Assembly: GCF_041530365.1 (NCBI RefSeq)
Contig: NZ_CP168034.1
Location: 992,001-1,056,000, forward strand
Source of the DNA: Capnocytophaga sp. ARDL2
Lineage (GTDB): Bacteria; Bacteroidota; Bacteroidia; Flavobacteriales; Flavobacteriaceae
DNA: 64,000 nt
Direction: 5' to 3'
Below, piece after piece: positions 43,187 to 62,592 of the stretch; the stretch's first letter is position 1; each line of letters begins with the position of its first letter. Made by a program: the position numbers and the translations under genes. The notes under the pieces were generated by a model. It made no database searches. It was given only the letters and a program-made list of their open reading frames with translations, and was not told the DNA's origin.

Positions 43187-43297
43187 AAAACTAAAATCAT
43201 AAAAAAGCACAATCAAAAAACAACATCGTAACCCACGGATGAATTTAAAAACATACAACGAAAAACGCCCCAATTAAGGAGCGTTTTTGAGGGATAT
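43187..43297 (+). repeat. Scar A: fused fragments of marR 3' end, 50157-gene 5' end and terminator
   Basis: AAAACTAAAATCATAAAAAA (43187-43206) equals the marR end at 46324-46343. GCACAATCAAAAAACAACAT and the next bases to 43238 match the start of the 50157 gene. The text TTTAAAAACATACA and the hairpin at 43261-43288 then match scar B. Together with 46324-46440 it forms a pair of roughly 110-bp direct repeats flanking 3 kb of accessory genes. Confidence 0.7.
43261..43288 (+). terminator. GCG-type hairpin terminator in scar A
   Basis: AAAAACGCCCC, AATT, AAGGAGCGTTTTT: stem with one mismatch and a T-tract. Its reverse complement differs from the scar B hairpin (46406-46434) by one base in the core. 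Confidence 0.65.
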
Positions 43298-43301
43298 ATA
43301 C

Positions 43302-43332
43302 TTGACGCAAAGATACAAAGTTTTTACCTTTG
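43302..43332 (+). promoter_or_regulatory. Sigma-A promoter of the first Crp/Fnr regulator gene
   Basis: TTG (43302-43304), 20-base spacer, TACCTTTG (43325-43332), 29 bases before the ATG at 43362. Confidence 0.55.
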
Positions 43333-43361
43333 TTAAAATTTTTAGATATTCTCAGTCCATT

Positions 43362-43988
43362 ATGTACGAAAAACAAAATTATATACAACAATTTTTTAAA
43401 AAAGTACAATCCTACTACCCAATCTGCAATGAAACCTTCGATTTGTTGCTGAAAATCATTCATTTTGAAGAAATTAAATCTGGAGAATTGCTTTTACCTT
43501 TTGGCAAAATAGCCAAATACAAATATTTCATTTGTCAAGGGGCGGTAATCGCTTATTTTATAGATGGAAAAGGAAGTTTATACAACAAAAATATATTCCT
43601 TGAAAATGATTTTGCTGGGTCTTTAGTCTCATCAATATTACAAAAACCTTCTCAGTTTGAACTTCAAGCCGTTGAAGATTCGGTAATTATTTGCATTGAC
43701 TATCAAAAATATAGGAAGTTAATAGATGAAAACTCAGATTTTAAAAATTTCTACATTGCTTATCTGGAAAAAAATTGGGTAATTGATAAGGAAAAACGAG
43801 AAATCGCTATTGTAATGCAGGAAGCCTCTGAAAGATACCTAAAATTATTAGAACAACATCTAAATATAGAAAACCATATTTCACTGAAAAACATAGCATT
43901 ACATTTAGGAATCACTCCGACACAATTGAGTCGCATTCGTAAAGAATTAAAAAATTCTCTGCCAATCAACATATGTAAAGAGTTGTAA
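43362..43988 (+). CDS. Crp/Fnr-family transcriptional regulator
   Basis: A 208-residue protein with a cyclic-nucleotide-binding-like beta-roll (KSGELLLPFGKIAKYKYFICQG) and a C-terminal winged helix-turn-helix (ISLKNIALHLGITPTQLSRIR). It is one of three Crp/Fnr genes in this accessory region. The ATG at 43362 gives the usual N-terminus and follows the promoter. It precedes a YdcZ-type transporter and an acetyltransferase, which it may control; effector unknown. Confidence 0.85.
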   Translation: MYEKQNYIQQFFKKVQSYYPICNETFDLLLKIIHFEEIKSGELLLPFGKIAKYKYFICQGAVIAYFIDGKGSLYNKNIFLENDFAGSLVSSILQKPSQFELQAVEDSVIICIDYQKYRKLIDENSDFKNFYIAYLEKNWVIDKEKREIAIVMQEASERYLKLLEQHLNIENHISLKNIALHLGITPTQLSRIRKELKNSLPINICKEL

Positions 43989-46703: not shown

Positions 46704-48477
46704 TTAATTCTTCCATTTCCAAACTGATAAAGCGTATTGAGCAAGTTTCTTTGAACGCTTATTTATTTCATCAATATTCCAAATATCAATTTTTTGTTCT
46801 TTCAATTCTCTGGATAAAGCCGAAACATCAGTATATAATTTTCTTTTTTCCTCAAATGGTTTCTGACCAAATGTACTATTTGCAGAACCACTATTGAGTA
46901 GCAAATTTCCTACTGTGTTAATAACTGTTTTTAAGGTAGGAATTTCAGCATCATTCCCTAAATAATCCTTCCAATGTTGATTTAATGTTTGGGGTAAAAT
47001 ATGCTCTATTGTATTGATTGTAGAGTAATCTGGATATTCGTTATAATTCTGACACGATTTATCAATTTCTTGCAAAATATGCCTTGTAAAGTTCAGTTCT
47101 CTTTGATTATATAATTCTTTTGTTAAAAACGAATCTTCGAACTCTTGATTAGAAACCCATAGCCCTTCTTGTTGAAATCTTGTTTCAATTGCCCGAGCTT
47201 TATTTGGCTCGTTAATTACCTCATTGAGCAACGAAGGAAAAAAAGTATCAAATTTAGTCACACGCCTATTGGCTATTTTACTTCTTACTAAAAGGACATA
47301 AGTAGCTTCTAATAATTCCAATGTATCTTTCTCAGTAAGGTTGTTCAGAGAAAAACTTTTCAGAACACTCATTAAAAACGGTGTTATAGAAGTCATATTA
47401 GTTTGTGAAATTTTGTATAACAAATCCTTTACAGTATTGTTTGAATGCGGGAATTTTAAAGGTTGTTTAATGTTATTATAATAAGTAACATTTTCTAAAA
47501 TATCGTTTAAAGTTGAAATGGCTTTTTCCTTAGATATTTTTTTATTTCGATTTTTGAAATGCACATACATTCTCCTCCCTTGACCAATTCTCTTTTTCTC
47601 TCCAATGGAAAAAAGATTAATTAAATAATCTTCAAAATTGCCTTCACCAACTTTTTTTCTTGACTCTAACCAGTGGTTATTATGTAATCTTTCGTGTTCA
47701 TTGTTCGAGTCGTTTAATATAGGTTTAAAGATATAATTGCACAAAAGTTCGGATGCTGTTAGTGGCATTCCTGCATCATTTAGACTCTCAAAAATAGCTT
47801 GTGCATCGTCTTTTTTTTCGTCCAATGGAATCCAAACAATAGTCAATGAATTGATAATAATCTGATAAAGCTGCCAAAGTTCTTGAACACTAAAATTTTT
47901 TGTTTTTTTTGTTGTAAAATTTCACAAATTGATCTATTCTATTGGTGTCAGGAAAATATAATTTTTGATCTTCAAGCAGGAATGGGCTATTGGGGTTTTC
48001 TTGGAAAATTGTCTTATAAGTAGGATAACGATCTCCCTTGCTACTGAAAACCTTTAATTTTAGGTAATCGTCAATATCTGTTATATTATTAGAAAGTAGT
48101 TGATCTATTTCAGCACAATAACTTTGAGCCTCTGATGATAGAGGAGACAAGTTATTAAGAGATTTTTTTATTAATCCTAAAAGTAAATAAACAGTTGTAA
48201 TTCTTTGCTGACCATCAATAATTAAATATCGCTTCAAATTCGGATGGGGAGCATTGGCTTTTTCTAATACCACAACAGGTCCAAAAAAATGTTCTTCATT
48301 TTCAAAATTGTTGTCATCTAACGCAGGAATTATTTCTTCATAAATATCACTCCAAAGTTTATCCCATTGTTTTTTCTCCCAAGCATATCCTCTTTGAAAG
48401 AAAGGGATTTCATACCTTACATTTGTGTTAAAAATATCTTTAAATCTTCTGCTAATTATTTTGTGTTCTTGATTCAT
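46704..48477 (-). pseudogene. GmrSD-like DUF262-DUF1524 nuclease, frameshifted in an A-tract
   Basis: The first frame (48477-47890) holds the DUF262 part: VRYEIPFFQRGYAWEKKQW and YLIIDGQQRITTVYLLL, the nucleotide-binding motifs. It ends in a Lys/Asn run encoded by A-rich sequence near 47893-47910. One base out, the sequence reads NFSVQELWQLYQIIINSLTI and runs into the second frame (47846-46704), with the rest of DUF262 (AIFESLNDAGMPLTASELL) and the DUF1524 HNH motif TINTIEHILPQTLNQHW. GmrSD is a type IV restriction enzyme that cuts modified phage DNA. One extra A would explain the break. Confidence 0.85.
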
Positions 48478-53701: not shown

Positions 53702-53709
53702 TACTTTTG
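53702..53709 (+). promoter_or_regulatory. -7 element of the DUF262-AAA-RelE-like operon
   Basis: TACTTTTG. TTTG at 53684-53687 is 14 bases upstream, shorter than usual. It lies 80 bases before the ATG at 53790, leaving a long leader with an AT palindrome near 53735-53765. Confidence 0.4.
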
Positions 53710-53789: not shown

Positions 53790-55019
53790 ATGGTACAAGA
53801 TACAATAAAACAGAAAGTAGACGAATTTGATTCATCTGACGGCGTTGAAAGTGGAGAAATTGAAGAAATTCAGCCATTTGATCCTGAAAAAATATCCATT
53901 GACACTAAAACTTTTACAATGGAGGCTTGTTTGAGACGACTGGAACAAAAGACATTGATTTTAAATCCAGATTTTCAAAGAAATGAGGTGTGGAATGAAG
54001 ATAAAAAATCAAGGCTTATAGAATCTCTTATTTTGAAAATTCCATTACCTATGTTTTATGTTTCTGCAGATGAAAATAATGTATTTTATGTAGTAGATGG
54101 ACTACAACGGTTGAGTACTATCAGAGATTTTGTATTGGGGAAAGAATATTTGGATACTTTGAAGCTAGAAGAAAAGGGAAATGGATTTAGATTAAAAAAT
54201 TTAGAATTTTGGGGAGAGAAATTCAATGGTTCTAATTTTAAGTCTTTACCTATTCATATTTACAATAGAATTTTAGAGACTGAGTTTACTTTTACAATCA
54301 TTAATCCTGGTACACCAGAAGAGGTGAAAAGAAATATATTTAAAAGAATTAATACAGGTGGAGAACCCTTAACTTCTCAAGAAATAAGACACGCTTTATA
54401 CATCGGAGCAAGTACAGAATTCTTATTAGATTTATCTAAAAGCAATGAATTTCTAAAAGCTACAGATAATTCTATCAAATCAGGAAGAATGATGGATAGA
54501 GAAATTATACTAAGAGCTTTGGCTTTTATGGTCAGAAGCTATGATTCCTATCCTAAAAATAATGATATGGATGAATTTTTATCTGATACAATGAGAATAA
54601 TAAATGTATATAACAACAAGCGACCTTTAAGCAAAGCGGATATCAAATTTAAAGAATCTGTAGAATCAAATGAGATAAATCATAATTTGAATGATTTAAA
54701 AAACAAGTTTAATACGGCAATGATAAGGTCTTTCAAACTTTTTGGAAAACATTCATTTAGAAAAAGCTATAATAATAAACAAAGAACTCCTATAAATAAG
54801 GGACTTTTTGAGGTTTGGTGTAATACTCTTTCTAACTTAAATGAATATGAATATGAAAAATTATTATCTAATAGGAAAGGATTTATGAATGACTATATTG
54901 AATTATTAAATGATAATAATTTTATTATTGTTATATCAAGAGACAGTCAGAAGTCGAGTAGTGTTAAAACTAGATATGAAAGGATTAATGAACTTGTAAA
55001 TAAACATATAAAATGGTAA
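53790..55019 (+). CDS. DUF262-domain protein (ParB/GmrS-like)
   Basis: A 409-residue protein with the DUF262 motifs LNPDFQRNEVWNEDKKSRL, ESLILKIPLPMFYVS and YVVDGLQRLSTIRDFVLGKE, a ParB-like nucleotide-binding fold. An FKRINTGGEPLTSQEIRHAL segment follows, also typical. No DUF1524 HNH domain is present, so unlike GmrSD it has no nuclease of its own. Its 3' end overlaps the ATPase gene by 7 bases. Likely the NTP-sensing or DNA-recognising part of a defence operon (inference). Confidence 0.85.
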   Translation: MVQDTIKQKVDEFDSSDGVESGEIEEIQPFDPEKISIDTKTFTMEACLRRLEQKTLILNPDFQRNEVWNEDKKSRLIESLILKIPLPMFYVSADENNVFYVVDGLQRLSTIRDFVLGKEYLDTLKLEEKGNGFRLKNLEFWGEKFNGSNFKSLPIHIYNRILETEFTFTIINPGTPEEVKRNIFKRINTGGEPLTSQEIRHALYIGASTEFLLDLSKSNEFLKATDNSIKSGRMMDREIILRALAFMVRSYDSYPKNNDMDEFLSDTMRIINVYNNKRPLSKADIKFKESVESNEINHNLNDLKNKFNTAMIRSFKLFGKHSFRKSYNNKQRTPINKGLFEVWCNTLSNLNEYEYEKLLSNRKGFMNDYIELLNDNNFIIVISRDSQKSSSVKTRYERINELVNKHIKW

Positions 55020-56017
55020 AAAGTATAAACATTTCTGGTTTTAAATCATTATTAGAAAACTACATTGAATTTGGAAATTTAACCTTATTGACTGGATTAA
55101 ATAGCTCAGGAAAAAGTTCGATAATTCAGGCTCTACTGATGTTAGAAAAAGCATATTATGAAAAAGATAATGTGCTTTTGGAAAATCACGGCTCAATGAG
55201 AGATTTGAAAAACCCATATCAAGAAGAAAATATAAAATTTGATATCCGAATTGATGATGCTGAAAATACCATTGAATTTTGTGATGATGATAAATGTTTA
55301 ATTCCTAACGATAAACTTATTTTTCCTGAAATTATTTATATCTCAGCAAACAGATTTGGTCCATCTATAAATTTGCCTATATATAATAATTCTGTAAGAA
55401 AAAATAAAATTGGTAAAAATGGCGAAAATCTTATTCAGTTTATTGATTTTTACAAAGATGAAATAATTGACAATTCTTTAATTCGAGATGAATCTGAGGG
55501 GAATACCGTATTATTCAATATTAGAACTTGGTTAAATATTATTTCTCCGAATATAAAATTTGATTACAATATAGATAAGAAAAGTGATACTTCGTATGCA
55601 CTGTTTAATGGATATAGATCTACTAATGTTGGATTTGGATTAAGTTATTCTCTAAGCGTTATCGCAACTCTGTTAATCGGTTCTGTAATAAAGAACTCTT
55701 TAATAATAATTGAAAATCCAGAGGCTCATTTACATCCTAGAGGACAAGTTGAATTAGCAAAACTAATGTCTTTATGTGCGAATAACGGAAATCAGATAAT
55801 TGTAGAAACTCATAGCGACCATATCTTTGATAGTGTTAGAATAGCTTGTAAAGAAATGGAAGGATTTAATGAAAAAGTGAAATTACATTGGCTCGAACTT
55901 AATGAAAAAAATAATTCTACAATTATTTCTCCCATAATTAGCAAGAAAGGAAGAATTGACGAATGGTCACAAGGTTTTTTTGACCAATTTGAAATAAACT
56001 CTTCAAAATTAATCTAA
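55013..56017 (+). CDS. AAA-family ATPase (DUF3696/RecF-like)
   Basis: A 334-residue ABC/RecF-type ATPase. Walker A is LTGLNSSGKSSIIQALLML, the signature region GFGLSYSLSVIATL, and Walker B SLIIIENPEAHLHPRGQ, with switch histidine in IIVETHSDHIF. The end resembles the DUF3696 C-terminus. Such ATPases sense DNA or activate partner effectors in many phage-defence systems. It is coupled to the DUF262 gene by overlap and to the next gene by a 6-base gap, so the three are a unit. Confidence 0.88.
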   Translation: MVKSINISGFKSLLENYIEFGNLTLLTGLNSSGKSSIIQALLMLEKAYYEKDNVLLENHGSMRDLKNPYQEENIKFDIRIDDAENTIEFCDDDKCLIPNDKLIFPEIIYISANRFGPSINLPIYNNSVRKNKIGKNGENLIQFIDFYKDEIIDNSLIRDESEGNTVLFNIRTWLNIISPNIKFDYNIDKKSDTSYALFNGYRSTNVGFGLSYSLSVIATLLIGSVIKNSLIIIENPEAHLHPRGQVELAKLMSLCANNGNQIIVETHSDHIFDSVRIACKEMEGFNEKVKLHWLELNEKNNSTIISPIISKKGRIDEWSQGFFDQFEINSSKLI

Positions 56018-56023
56018 CATAAA

Positions 56024-56938
56024 ATGATTTATTATTCATTCAATGAATGTTTTAGTAAGAATATTGGTTTTAATTTATTGAAACAGTGTTTTTCTGATAC
56101 ACTAAAACATTATAAAAACATAGCTGAAAAACATCCAGATGTAGTTTTTGGGATTCTTACCGACAAAGTTATCAGTGATGTTGAAATTAATAAAAAAAAT
56201 AGTTTGTACGATTTGGTTGATTCATTAGATAGAGAAGAAAAAAGATATGCTTTTAGTTTATTGAATAAATATCCTACTGAAGATTTTTTCGAAATTGATA
56301 ATATAGATTCGTTAATTGATAATAACTATATTTTATCTGTTGATAATTGTGAATATAATGCTTTTAGTCATAAAATAATTAGCTTGTATAGTGGTTTTTT
56401 ATTCTCTTTGGGCGTTCACAATGATTTAAAGAAAAATCAATTAGGAATATTAGAAAAAAATAATAAAGAATCAATAGCCCTTATTGATAACCTTTTTGGA
56501 GAACAAGCTAATACAAAATATAATCTACAACAAATTAGCAATAAAATTGGTCAATCAAAACAAGGGTTCAATAAATTATTAACACTATTCGGGGCACCTA
56601 TCTTCGATGAAAGACTTTTTAAAAAGGAATATGAACATTTATCAGTTGAAATACAGAATTGCATTTATGATAATTTTGAAATAGCTAAAACACGAGATTT
56701 ACCTACTCCTTTTTCTGCTGATGGACAATTGATTAAGGATGTTACTCCTCAAAAAGAAAACAATATAAAGGTGTATGAATTGAGAATTTTTAAACCTGTA
56801 TGTATAAGAATATATTTTTATGAAAATAATGAAAATATATATTTAGCATCTATTACTAGAAAACCAGCTAAAAACACTCAAAGCAAAGATATTAGAACAG
56901 CTTTATCTATAATAAAATCTCTAATTAAAACGCATTAG
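56024..56938 (+). CDS. Unknown protein with a RelE/HigB-like C-terminal domain
   Basis: A 304-residue protein. Residues 1 to about 200 match nothing I know. From about 200 the sequence follows the pattern of Gp49/HigB-type toxins: NCIYDNFEIAKTRDLPTPFS, then VYELRIFKPVCIRIYFY, NIYLASITRKPAKNTQSKDI and a final helix. RelE-family domains cut mRNA on ribosomes. If this one is active, it would be the effector of the operon. The resemblance is by eye only. A strong terminator follows. Confidence 0.7.
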   Translation: MIYYSFNECFSKNIGFNLLKQCFSDTLKHYKNIAEKHPDVVFGILTDKVISDVEINKKNSLYDLVDSLDREEKRYAFSLLNKYPTEDFFEIDNIDSLIDNNYILSVDNCEYNAFSHKIISLYSGFLFSLGVHNDLKKNQLGILEKNNKESIALIDNLFGEQANTKYNLQQISNKIGQSKQGFNKLLTLFGAPIFDERLFKKEYEHLSVEIQNCIYDNFEIAKTRDLPTPFSADGQLIKDVTPQKENNIKVYELRIFKPVCIRIYFYENNENIYLASITRKPAKNTQSKDIRTALSIIKSLIKTH

Positions 56939-57009
56939 ATTGAATTATTGTTTACTCTCTATGATAGTTTGTTCATTATTTTAATTTATTGTCAAATAAA
57001 TATTTTTTG

Positions 57010-57039
57010 AAAAGAGAGAGCTTTTACTCTCTCTTTTTT
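57010..57039 (+). terminator. Terminator of the three-gene DUF262 operon
   Basis: AAAAGAGAGAG, CTTTTA loop, CTCTCTCTTTTTT: strong hairpin with T-tract, 70 bases after the last stop. Confidence 0.8.
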
Positions 57040-57134
57040 CTCATATATTTTGTTGTTTTTACACACTTTCTTTAATCTAAAAAATTACATTTGCTAATAT
57101 TAAATTTAAAATTCCAAAACCATTCAAAACTTGA

Positions 57135-57163: not shown

Positions 57164-57706
57164 ATGAATCTCCATACGATTTTTACGGAAAACTTTTCCT
57201 TGGGAAAGGAAATCGTTATCCAAAGAGGAGCGTTTTTAAAAACGCCTGATACGAAAGACACGCATATTTATCTTGTGAAAGAGGGGAGTTTAAAAATCGG
57301 ATTTTTTACCGAAAATGAAGACAAAATACTAAGGTTCGGGTACGAGAATGATGTAATCACGGCATTGGATTCTTTTATCACAGAACAGAAATCCAAATTG
57401 TATATTCAGGCAATCAAAAAGTGTCGTTTGGCGGTGGTTTCTAAGTCGGATTTTATGGCATTTGCACAAAAATCTTCTGAAAACTTGTGGATTTATACCA
57501 AAATTTTAGAAAAACTACTTGTTGACCAATTGGAACGCGAACAAGATTTGCTCTTACCCTCGCCCAGAGAACGCTACCAGCGAATTTTGAAACGCAACCC
57601 CCAACTTTTTCAGCAAATTCCGCACAGGCACATCGCCGTGTATTTGGGAATGACCGAAGAGACGCTTTCCAGACTCAAAAAAACATTGACGCCAATCAAG
57701 ATTTAG
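57164..57706 (+). CDS. Crp/Fnr-family transcriptional regulator
   Basis: A 180-residue protein with a cNMP-binding-like N-terminal half (HIYLVKEGSLKIGFFTENE) and a C-terminal helix-turn-helix (HRHIAVYLGMTEETLSRLKK). It is followed by a DinB-family gene 34 bases on, perhaps its target. Motifs and length are ordinary for the short Bacteroidota Crp/Fnr group; ligand unknown. Confidence 0.82.
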   Translation: MNLHTIFTENFSLGKEIVIQRGAFLKTPDTKDTHIYLVKEGSLKIGFFTENEDKILRFGYENDVITALDSFITEQKSKLYIQAIKKCRLAVVSKSDFMAFAQKSSENLWIYTKILEKLLVDQLEREQDLLLPSPRERYQRILKRNPQLFQQIPHRHIAVYLGMTEETLSRLKKTLTPIKI

Positions 57707-59134: not shown

Positions 59135-59706
59135 ATGATGGTTAGTGAATATTTTTCAAAGTTGGTGCAACTCTCCACAGAGGAAAAAAACTTGATAGAT
59201 AAGAGCTTTGAACTGAAATCCTTCTCCAAAGGAGATTTTGCCTTGCGTTTGGGAGTGATTTGTGAATCTGAATTTTTTGTAAAACAGGGCTGTCTTAAAA
59301 ATTATTATATCGACTTTCAAGGCAATGAAATTATTCTTTCTTTTGCTATAGAGCATTGGTGGATTGGTGATTTTGACAGTTTTAACAATCATACTCCCAG
59401 TAAAATGTTTGTAGAAGCTTTGGAAGATAGCGAGGTTTATACTATTTCCTACAACAAAAAACAGCAACTACTCAAAGATATTCCACAATTGGAGCGTGCT
59501 TATCGTATACTTTTAGAACGACATTTACAAAACTATCAGGAACGAATTTATTCTGTATTAGCACTTTCGGCCAAGAACGCTACGAACGATTTTTAAAAAA
59601 ATATGCCAAATTGGTGCAGTGCGTTCCACAGTACTCTATCGCTTCTTTTTTGGGTGTAACCCCCGAAACGCTGAGCCGTATCAGAGCTAAACAGGCTAAG
59701 AAATAG
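59135..59706 (+). pseudogene. Crp/Fnr-family regulator with a frameshift before the DNA-binding domain
   Basis: The first frame (59135-59596) gives the effector half (LRLGVICESEFFVKQGCLKN, IEHWWIGDFDSFNNH) and then loses register after VLALSA. One base out from 59571, the sequence reads ERYERFLKKYAKLVQCVPQ and SIASFLGVTPETLSRIRAK, the expected helix-turn-helix, ending at 59706. One missing C in the CC at 59571-59572 would restore it (about 190 residues). Either recent inactivation or a sequencing error. Confidence 0.82.
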
Positions 59707-60367: not shown

Positions 60368-60375
60368 TATCTTTG
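60368..60375 (+). promoter_or_regulatory. -7 element of hsdM
   Basis: TATCTTTG, 30 bases before the ATG at 60406. Confidence 0.5.
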
Positions 60376-60405
60376 CTTCCTAAAACATTTTTTACAGACA
60401 AATAT

Positions 60406-62592
60406 ATGGATCATAAAATTCACAATCAGATTGTTAATTTCATTTGGAGTATTGCCGATGATGTACTAAGAGATATTTTTGTTCGTGGAAAATACCGCGA
60501 TATTATTTTGCCATTTACGGTACTTAGGCGTTTAGATGCCTTGTTGGTGCCTACCAAACAAAAAGTTTTGGAAGCAGTAGAATTTATGCGAAAAGAAAAA
60601 ATCGACGACTATTCGGCACTCAAATCGGTTACTAATTATCCGTTTTACAATACCTCTAAATTTACTTTCGAGAGCCTTCTCAATGATGCCAATAACATAG
60701 ACAGCAATTTAGAAGCCTATTTAGACGGATTTAGCCCCAATGTACAAGAAATCATCAGTAAATTCAAATTGAGAAATCAGTTGGAAACGATGAAAGAAAA
60801 CGGAATTACTTTTCTTTTGATTGAAAAATTTGCTTCCAAAGAAATCAACCTTAGCCCCAACGAAGCCCTAAATGGCAAAGGCGAAAAAATGCCTCCGCTT
60901 ACCAATTTGGGTATGGGCTATGTATTTGAAGAACTGATACGAAAATTCAACGAGGAAAACAACGAAGAAGCAGGAGAACATTTTACCCCACGAGAAATCA
61001 TCAAACTGATGACGCATATTTTGTTTCTTCCAGTAAAAGACAAAATTACAAAAGGGACTTATCTCATTTATGACCCAGCCTGTGGTAGCGGAGGTATGCT
61101 TACCGAAGCCGAAAGTTTTGCCGAAGAAATTACCGGACGAAAAGGCGGTTTTAGTCTCTATGGGCAAGAAGTAAATCCTGAAACCTATGCTATTTGCACC
61201 TCGGATATGCTCATCAAAGGCGACAAACCCGAAAATATAGCCTTTGGTTCTACGCTCTCAAAAGATGGTTTTCCAGAGTTGTTTTTTGATTTTATGCTCT
61301 CCAATCCTCCTTACGGAAAAACTTGGAAATTAGACGAAAGTGCCATTGTAGATAATCGCGGAAAGAAAGGCAAGGGCGAAAATAGCGAAAACATTAAAGA
61401 CCCTCGTTTTCAAGTGGGATTGCCTACCATTTCAGACGGACAACTATTATTTTTGATGAATATGGTAAGCAAAATGAAACACGATACCTCATTGGGAAGT
61501 CGCATAGCTTCCGTGCATAATGGTTCGTCTTTGTTTACAGGAGATGCAGGAGGTGGTGAAAGTGAAATCCGAAAATATATCATCGAAAATGACTATTTGG
61601 ACTGCATCATCGCACTGCCCAAAAATATTTTTTACAACACAGGTATTCCTACTTATGTATGGATACTCAACAACCGAAAACCCACACACCGCAAAGGCAA
61701 AGTACAACTGATCAACGCATTGGATTTGTTTGTAAAATTGCGTAAAAACTTGGGCGATAAAAACTGCGAAATGACCGCCGAACACATCGACCAAATTACA
61801 GACCTGTATATGAACTTTACCGAATCGGATATTTCAAAAATATTTTCCAATGAGCATTTTGGTTATCGCAAAATTACGGTAGAAAGACCCTTGCGTTTGT
61901 CTGTAAAATTTACAGAAGAAGCCCTTGAAAACCTGCGTTTTGACAAGAATTTGGAAGAGCCAATGCGTTGGGCTTATCAAAAATTTGGTAAAAAAGTATA
62001 TACCGAGCTTGAAAACCTAAAAACCGAAATAGAAAAATACCTTGCCAAAAGTGAGGTAAAACTCAAAACCAACGATAAAAAAAATTTGTTTAGTCAAACA
62101 TTTTGGAACACCCAGTTGGAAAACTTGGAAAAGGCAAAACAACTAATGGAACATATTGGCACTAAGCAATTTGACAATTACAATGAATTTCTCTTACTTT
62201 TTGATCAAACAATCAAAAAACATAAGATAAAATTGGACAACAAAGCACAAAAAAACTTGCTCAACGCCATCAGTTGGAAAAATGAAGAGGCTACCCCCGT
62301 AATCAAAAAGGTAGAAAAAAACGGAACAATCACTTACGAAGCCGATACCGACCTCAGAGACACCGAAAATGTGCCACTGAGCGAAGAGATACAAACCTAC
62401 TTTGAGCGAGAAGTCTTGGCACATATCCCCGATGCGTGGATAGACCACAGCAAAACTGTAACGGGTTATGAAATTTCGTTTACACGCTATTTTTATCGCT
62501 ATACCCCTCCGAGGAGTATAGAAGAAATCGCTGCCGAAATCCTACAATTGGAGCAAGAAACCGATGGTATTTTAAAGCAAATAGTGAGTTAA
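60406..62592 (+). CDS. hsdM: Type I restriction-modification system methyltransferase HsdM
   Basis: HsdM methylates adenine in the target site as part of an HsdM2S complex. The 728-residue protein has the N-terminal helical domain (NFIWSIADDVLRDIFVRGKY), the SAM motif LIYDPACGSGGMLTEAESF and the catalytic motif FMLSNPPYGKTW (NPPY). The C-terminal extension is long, with coiled-coil stretches. hsdS and hsdR are expected nearby but lie outside the window if present. The ATG at 60406 gives the family N-terminus. Confidence 0.93.
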   Translation: MDHKIHNQIVNFIWSIADDVLRDIFVRGKYRDIILPFTVLRRLDALLVPTKQKVLEAVEFMRKEKIDDYSALKSVTNYPFYNTSKFTFESLLNDANNIDSNLEAYLDGFSPNVQEIISKFKLRNQLETMKENGITFLLIEKFASKEINLSPNEALNGKGEKMPPLTNLGMGYVFEELIRKFNEENNEEAGEHFTPREIIKLMTHILFLPVKDKITKGTYLIYDPACGSGGMLTEAESFAEEITGRKGGFSLYGQEVNPETYAICTSDMLIKGDKPENIAFGSTLSKDGFPELFFDFMLSNPPYGKTWKLDESAIVDNRGKKGKGENSENIKDPRFQVGLPTISDGQLLFLMNMVSKMKHDTSLGSRIASVHNGSSLFTGDAGGGESEIRKYIIENDYLDCIIALPKNIFYNTGIPTYVWILNNRKPTHRKGKVQLINALDLFVKLRKNLGDKNCEMTAEHIDQITDLYMNFTESDISKIFSNEHFGYRKITVERPLRLSVKFTEEALENLRFDKNLEEPMRWAYQKFGKKVYTELENLKTEIEKYLAKSEVKLKTNDKKNLFSQTFWNTQLENLEKAKQLMEHIGTKQFDNYNEFLLLFDQTIKKHKIKLDNKAQKNLLNAISWKNEEATPVIKKVEKNGTITYEADTDLRDTENVPLSEEIQTYFEREVLAHIPDAWIDHSKTVTGYEISFTRYFYRYTPPRSIEEIAAEILQLEQETDGILKQIVS

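Follow-up and report, generated by a model that had tools for sequence, protein, structure and literature searches.

Three adjacent genes of Capnocytophaga sp. ARDL2, here called nsnA, nsnB and nsnC, lie on the forward strand of a 64,000-nucleotide stretch of DNA (contig NZ_CP168034.1, positions 992,001 to 1,056,000; "the window" below) and encode a DUF262 protein, an ATPase and a two-domain protein with a toxin-like C-terminus (Table 1). The 7-base overlap between nsnA and nsnB and the 6-base gap between nsnB and nsnC agree, like the coordinates, with the list of open reading frames (ORFs), so that the tight coupling proposed in a sequence-only reading of this DNA stands. That reading had also taken the trio for an undescribed defence operon, a view that did not survive comparison with a catalogue of known systems.

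Identity of the operon

PADLOC-DB, a defence-system catalogue of 2023, holds models that match all three proteins near full length: NsnA at 3.8e-133 (residues 6-408), NsnB at 1.1e-89 and NsnC, through model PDLC03897, at 4e-85. The genes are adjacent, on one strand and in the order A-B-C, exactly as in PADLOC's NsnABC, and we are nearly certain that the locus is this catalogued anti-phage system. A difference concerns NsnC, since PDLC03897 is one of many NsnC models; the PADLOC matches of the NsnC-type proteins scanned comprise 24 different NsnC accessions.

A description under another name fits as well. Gerdes (mBio 2025, PMC11980606) presents ptuXYZ as a DUF262 protein without HNH domain, a PtuA-like ATPase and a two-domain third protein, PtuZ, whose C-terminus has a BECR fold related to HigB and YoeB according to the model of a Flavobacterium protein. 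The window trio shares the DUF262 domain without DUF1524/HNH, the PtuA-like P-loop ATPase and the BECR-fold C-terminus of the third gene. It differs in that Gerdes terms the N-terminal domain of the third protein PIN-like and PtuX a putative nuclease, whereas a search with the N-terminal domain of the window NsnC alone returned no confident fold. Given the PADLOC matches and the ptuXYZ description, we rejected the idea of an undescribed system: the candidate is settled as known, and the locus is a good, well-formed specimen, ordinary in kind.

In the literature searched, the name ptuXYZ was found in the Gerdes paper alone, and no paper used the name NsnABC or paired Menshen with the Nsn name. 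NsnABC is probably Menshen. We take Nsn to be the gene prefix of Menshen (NsnA/B/C), for which no confirmation was found, and the Menshen system reportedly goes back to Millman et al. in 2022. The two names, NsnABC/Menshen and ptuXYZ, can be joined and seem to denote one system. A review (PMC10952713) states that Menshen confers phage resistance, which is abolished when the DUF262 gene is mutated or deleted, and gives the system a predicted OLD (OLD/TOPRIM) nuclease. In this last respect the window differs, as its NsnB has no Toprim match at E<=1 in Pfam, and a Toprim/OLD nuclease in NsnB was rejected on this ground.

Table 1. Features of the operon and its flanks; positions are those of the window.
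Feature	Positions	Strand	Description
nsnA	53790..55019	+	409 amino acids; DUF262 (ParB/Srx-like fold), no HNH domain
nsnB	55013..56017	+	334 amino acids; RecF/OLD/PtuA-like ATPase, C-terminal DUF3696
nsnC	56024..56938	+	304 amino acids; N-terminal alpha/beta domain ~1-186, HigB/Gp49-like RelE-fold domain ~187-304
NsnC effector (toxin) domain	56582..56935	+	residues 187-304; putative catalytic pocket E252, R254, R262, K280
TAnnTTTG element 5' of nsnA	53702..53709	+	weak; motif common in window
Terminator-like hairpin 3' of nsnC	57009..57040	+	12 pairs, 4 of them GC, T-rich tail

Domains of the three proteins

NsnA matches GmrSD_N/DUF262 in Pfam (2.7e-26, residues 54-204) and has no GmrSD_C/HNH (DUF1524) match at E<=1, which bears out the ParB/GmrS-like fold without HNH nuclease that had been read from the sequence. 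Its motifs PDFQR (60-64) and DGLQR (103-107) are invariant in all nine sequences compared. Against solved structures, its sequence gave only a weak match to a DUF262 protein of 818 amino acids (0.0076), and the profile search gave none. The DUF262 domains of BrxU and SspE are described as hydrolyzing nucleoside triphosphates (NTPs) and acting with an attached nuclease, and the cleaving domain of GmrSD and BrxU as DUF1524/HNH. It is the C-terminal DUF1524 HNH domain (GmrSD_C) of these type IV restriction systems that NsnA lacks, and with no HNH domain found in Pfam we rejected NsnA as an HNH restriction enzyme. Could it nevertheless be a DNA nuclease of the ParB/Srx-like type, so that the operon would exert type IV-like restriction of foreign DNA and NsnC would be a toxin of secondary importance? 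DUF262 is common to GmrSD, BrxU and SspE, and PtuX has been called a putative nuclease as cited above; however, the cleaving domain has no match at E<=1, and it is the third gene, not NsnA, that shows the greatest variation among loci, and so we consider this reading unlikely. NsnA is probably an NTP-binding sensor or switch. Some NsnA homologues have long N-terminal extensions (L006, 7050-8825; L037, 5176-6981; L038, 8929-10650), with frames of about 592, 601 and 573 amino acids, respectively, versus 409 in the window; the extra length may be an additional sensing domain or come from a wrongly called start.

NsnB was expected to be a RecF/DUF3696-like ATPase, and it matches AAA_15 (1.5e-23), AAA_21 and DUF3696 (3.4e-11) in Pfam. 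Invariant in nine of nine sequences are the Walker A residues G28 and N30-S35, the motif ENPEAHLHP (234-242) and the motif ETHSDH (265-270). The solved structures that match its sequence or profile are ATPases only, and PADLOC models of PtuA match it at 4.7e-12 and 1.2e-11. A RecF/OLD-like ATPase as regulator is what the trio has in common with Septu (PtuAB). The trio differs from Septu in having no HNH match in Pfam, no PtuB listed for NsnA or NsnC, and a predicted effector of RNase type.

For the C-terminus of NsnC, the proposed likeness to RelE and HigB held up. Pfam yields a sub-threshold Gp49 match (0.011, residues 226-295) and NCBIfam the RelE/ParE model TIGR02683 (2.3e-5, residues 248-299), and a structure search with the domain places HigB and RelE among the best matches, which supports a RelE-type fold. 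Searches of solved structures with the NsnC sequence and profile gave no useful match. In an alignment of 38 sequences (the window and 37 of 41 matches), E252, R254, R262 and K280 are invariant; the corresponding pocket pattern occurs in 40 of the 41 matches and arises in 212 of 20,000 shuffles of the window NsnC tail.

In the ribosome-bound HigB1 toxin of M. tuberculosis (HigB-TAC), which cleaves mRNA within the A site of the ribosome, E66, R68, R77 and K95 form part of the pocket proposed to be catalytic, which lies at the A-site codon; toxicity is fully inhibited by K95A, inhibited by R68A and R77A, and partly inhibited by E66A (PMC9098466). The distance from R254 to R262 is 8 residues compared with 9 in HigB-TAC, that from R262 to K280 is 18 in both, and the structure match aligns NsnC 187-304 on residues 8-119 of HigB, with K95 falling at about 280. 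From spacing and aligned ranges we infer that E252, R254, R262 and K280 are the counterparts of E66, R68, R77 and K95. NsnC is thus predicted to be an RNase effector with a working pocket, and we think it quite probable that it acts as a ribosome-dependent mRNase. A different role for the RelE-like domain, as a ParE-like gyrase poison or a non-catalytic RNA binder, appears improbable, as the structure matches in its favor score less well than the top HigB and RelE matches, and the four HigB pocket residues are invariant in NsnC while ParE, where the Gerdes paper treats it, is said to be without essential catalytic residues (PMC11980606). With the HigB pocket mapped onto NsnC, the mode of action of this variant can be tested directly and cheaply.

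The domain thus shares fold and four pocket residues with HigB1/HigB-TAC and the Gp49-like HigB toxins, from which it differs in that an N-terminal domain of 186 residues is fused in front of it and that it is coupled to two further proteins, a sensor and an ATPase. It likewise carries the RelE-fold toxin domain of HigBA and RelBE toxin-antitoxin pairs; in the intervals that flank the trio, no same-strand ORF of at least 80 amino acids was found as a candidate antitoxin gene. In Cami1, the CARF-RelE protein of type III CRISPR, control is, according to a PDB title, by cyclic tetra-adenylate within its own polypeptide, unlike the arrangement here. In the N-terminal domain of NsnC, none of the invariant columns (P84, L126, F127, N156, N163 and I171) is acidic, and the domain gave no confident fold, which led us to reject a second, PIN-type RNase active site.

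Occurrence, third genes and a model

Genome scans covered 395 Bacteroidota genomes with NsnC or NsnB, at most five candidates being scored per genome. NsnC is rare: it was found in at least four of these genomes, at full length in its own and two others. In a set of 100 genomes (its own included, 60 of the same genus), its own genome alone gave a full-length match, and a second match (E 9.8e-4) is limited to the C-terminal part. P0001, labelled Capnocytophaga canimorsus, is the closest NsnC (94%); this close relative, together with the lack of full-length matches among the 60 same-genus genomes, fits sporadic horizontal transfer.

As had been suggested for checking, the trio recurs as a unit. 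A scan of named genomes found eight NsnC loci (Chryseobacterium, Flavobacterium, Anditalea, Sediminibacterium, a Draconibacterium-labelled metagenome-assembled genome (MAG), a Saprospiraceae MAG, an Ignavibacteria MAG and a Bacteroidia bacterium), all eight, chosen by their NsnC, with NsnA and NsnB immediately 5' of it. With an NsnB profile (E<=1e-40), at least 13 places in 11 of the 395 genomes were found, and in 13 of 13 NsnA precedes and a third gene of 277-314 amino acids follows. One script, run on 47 loci (the window, 8 from named genomes, 12 from Bacteroidota, 14 viral and 12 plasmid loci, with at least L007/L039 and L041/L042 being duplicates or near-duplicates), recovered the full order in 45; L045 is cut off where its contig ends, and in L060 (Nostoc) NsnA is missing and a neighboring gene encodes an HD domain. 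NsnB matched 28 plasmid records, 14 of which were examined, and records from Pseudomonadota, Campylobacterota and Cyanobacteriota show the same order; the core therefore crosses phyla. Close NsnC copies were not found on plasmids, nor were viral contigs found by NsnC patterns. Searching with NsnB did yield viral contigs, among them L040-L042 with a third gene that looks NsnC-like and fits the HigB-like pattern in L041 and L042, but not in L040. The search for an empty site was uninformative, because both flanking genes occur in only 2 of 30 relatives (G063, G066) and never side by side. The Nostoc plasmid hits (L060, H8, H12-H15) are NsnB/DUF3696-like ATPases with no DUF262 gene listed in a gene table that is incomplete; in L060 an HNH protein lies upstream and the HD-domain gene downstream of the ATPase, and such loci may belong to another system that uses the same ATPase.

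Third genes vary in their C-terminal part. Among 46 tails, 16 show a HigB-like pattern, 22 a YoeB-like one, two TTGxET, one HDRY and five none, in a set that is biased, as 9 of the 16 HigB-like tails come from the window and from loci that NsnC itself had been used to find. A clear Pfam YoeB match is confined to L032 (5.4e-16), and the other 21 YoeB-like calls follow a pattern drawn by eye. The N-terminal 185 residues of L032 match model PDLC03895 (2e-35); L033 and L036 match the same model end to end, yet end in a different domain, which resembles the tail of CARF7-DUF2103 models (8e-7 and 2.7e-7). Because these third genes share the N-terminal domain and differ in the C-terminal one, we read the effectors as exchangeable, on a general sensor core. 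PADLOC files 18 of the 20 third proteins scanned as NsnC variants, with no model for L028 and L029. The third protein of the Campylobacter locus L059 has NsnC PDLC03880 as best model (1.2e-80); with its HDRY motif and a weak match (0.011) of phospholipase D-like type, it is probably a non-RelE effector. A search for its homologues gave 116 rows, three of them labelled phospholipase D-like PF16565. Shorter third proteins (240-248 amino acids) follow the DUF262-AAA pairs of a Klebsiella plasmid (L066, 2390-5299) and of two Campylobacter plasmids (L059 and L067). The title of an article by Li et al. from 2025 suggests that third-gene polymorphism has reportedly been published, and for this reason we claim no priority for it. 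A HEPN survey links the MAE_28990 HEPN with ParB nuclease and methylase genes (PMC3710099); with nothing beyond that link, we rejected it as a further effector of this operon.

What we observed directly are the identity, gene order, domain folds, conserved motifs and differing effector domains. They are best explained, in our moderately confident view, by an NsnABC (probably Menshen) operon that works as an NTP-controlled alarm and releases an mRNA-cutting enzyme. For the complete order of events, from sensing to abortive arrest, we see about even chances. NsnA, without a nuclease domain of its own, would bind NTP and sense infection or modified or foreign DNA, and NsnB, an ABC/OLD-type ATPase, would relay the signal as a switch. 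In the uninfected cell, NsnB would hold NsnC inactive, docked through its N-terminal domain. Once freed, the HigB-like domain would, as HigB1 does, cut mRNA in the ribosomal A site and stop translation, and the infected cell would abort phage production. The earlier proposal of an abortive-infection system was right about the domains of all three proteins, and its mechanism is plausible. More tentatively, and with somewhat less than even confidence, NsnABC/Menshen may be a plug-in alarm, in which a conserved NTP-sensing DUF262-ATPase core takes unrelated effectors via a docking domain of unrecognized fold, the output here being a HigB-type, ribosome-dependent mRNase and hence translation arrest, not DNA cutting.

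Several points weigh against the alarm explanation. NsnA carries DGLQR, not the nucleotide-hydrolysis motif DGQQR, which makes NTP hydrolysis by NsnA uncertain. The toxin-domain sequence matches (Gp49, TIGR02683) are all under curated cut-offs, Foldseek found no PDB match at E<=0.001 (best 1.9e-3), P0023 lacks the pocket pattern, and the pocket was assigned from spacing and aligned ranges. HigB-TAC K58, N73 and K99, which also matter in that toxin (PMC9098466), have no invariant NsnC counterpart (23 of 38 sequences have K at position 244, none has N at 259 and 20 have K at 283), and we have slightly lowered our confidence in an active RNase for this reason. Finally, the Pfam families of neighboring genes mostly belong to ordinary metabolism, transport and other housekeeping, and the count of defence neighbors has no matched control.

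Those neighbors were 84 ORFs of at least 150 amino acids within about 10 kb of the eight named-genome loci. The first 25 of the 82 families matched include two PtuA and two PtuB matches, restriction and methylase subunits of type I systems, a type IIG enzyme, matches to type II methylases, a CBASS cyclase and a TIR effector; defence genes do occur around the trio elsewhere, in an uncontrolled count. They speak against another reading, in which the operon would be an addiction module of toxin-antitoxin type: NsnB (or NsnA) would serve as the antitoxin to the HigB-like NsnC, and the operon would persist through selfish upkeep and not for defence. The retained main pocket residues of the HigB fold and the related trios on plasmids and viral contigs would suit such a module. 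Two large sensor and ATPase genes are, however, not the usual antitoxin, and if Nsn is Menshen, the phage resistance that depends on the DUF262 gene (PMC10952713) argues for defence, so that we give the addiction module a low probability.

Flanking signals and neighboring genes

The fraction of guanine and cytosine (GC) in the trio is 0.27, against 0.34 for the window; when a frame as long as the trio is slid along the window, 10 of 609 placements are as AT-rich. The claim that the trio is more AT-rich than its neighbors holds for the immediate flanks (0.36-0.43); other AT-rich stretches lie nearby, at 45-49 kb (0.29-0.31) and about 59-61 kb (0.29-0.32).

The promoter-like element and the "strong" terminator fared less well. 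Sigma-70-like sites are at chance level in the window (26 found, 25.7 expected). TAnnTTTG, which we take to be a Bacteroidota-type -7-like element, occurs 137 times against 102 expected, and the copy 5' of nsnA has a TTTG partner at 14 bases, less than the expected spacing. The hairpin scan gave two overlapping predictions against a shuffle mean of 1.0 (standard deviation 1.2), not above chance, and "strong" says too much of this stem.

The region does hold, as claimed, a GmrSD-like gene (46704-48477); of the type I restriction-modification locus, the HsdM gene (60373-62592) was found, being the only type I subunit looked at. Three genes with Crp-like cyclic-nucleotide-binding domains lie within about 16 kb (43287-43988, 57164-57706 and 59135-59596), the latter two downstream of the trio. 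The GmrSD-like gene, on the reverse strand, appears split into two ORFs (46704-47846 and 47890-48477), the upstream one holding the start of GmrSD_N and the downstream one its end together with GmrSD_C, and looks interrupted.

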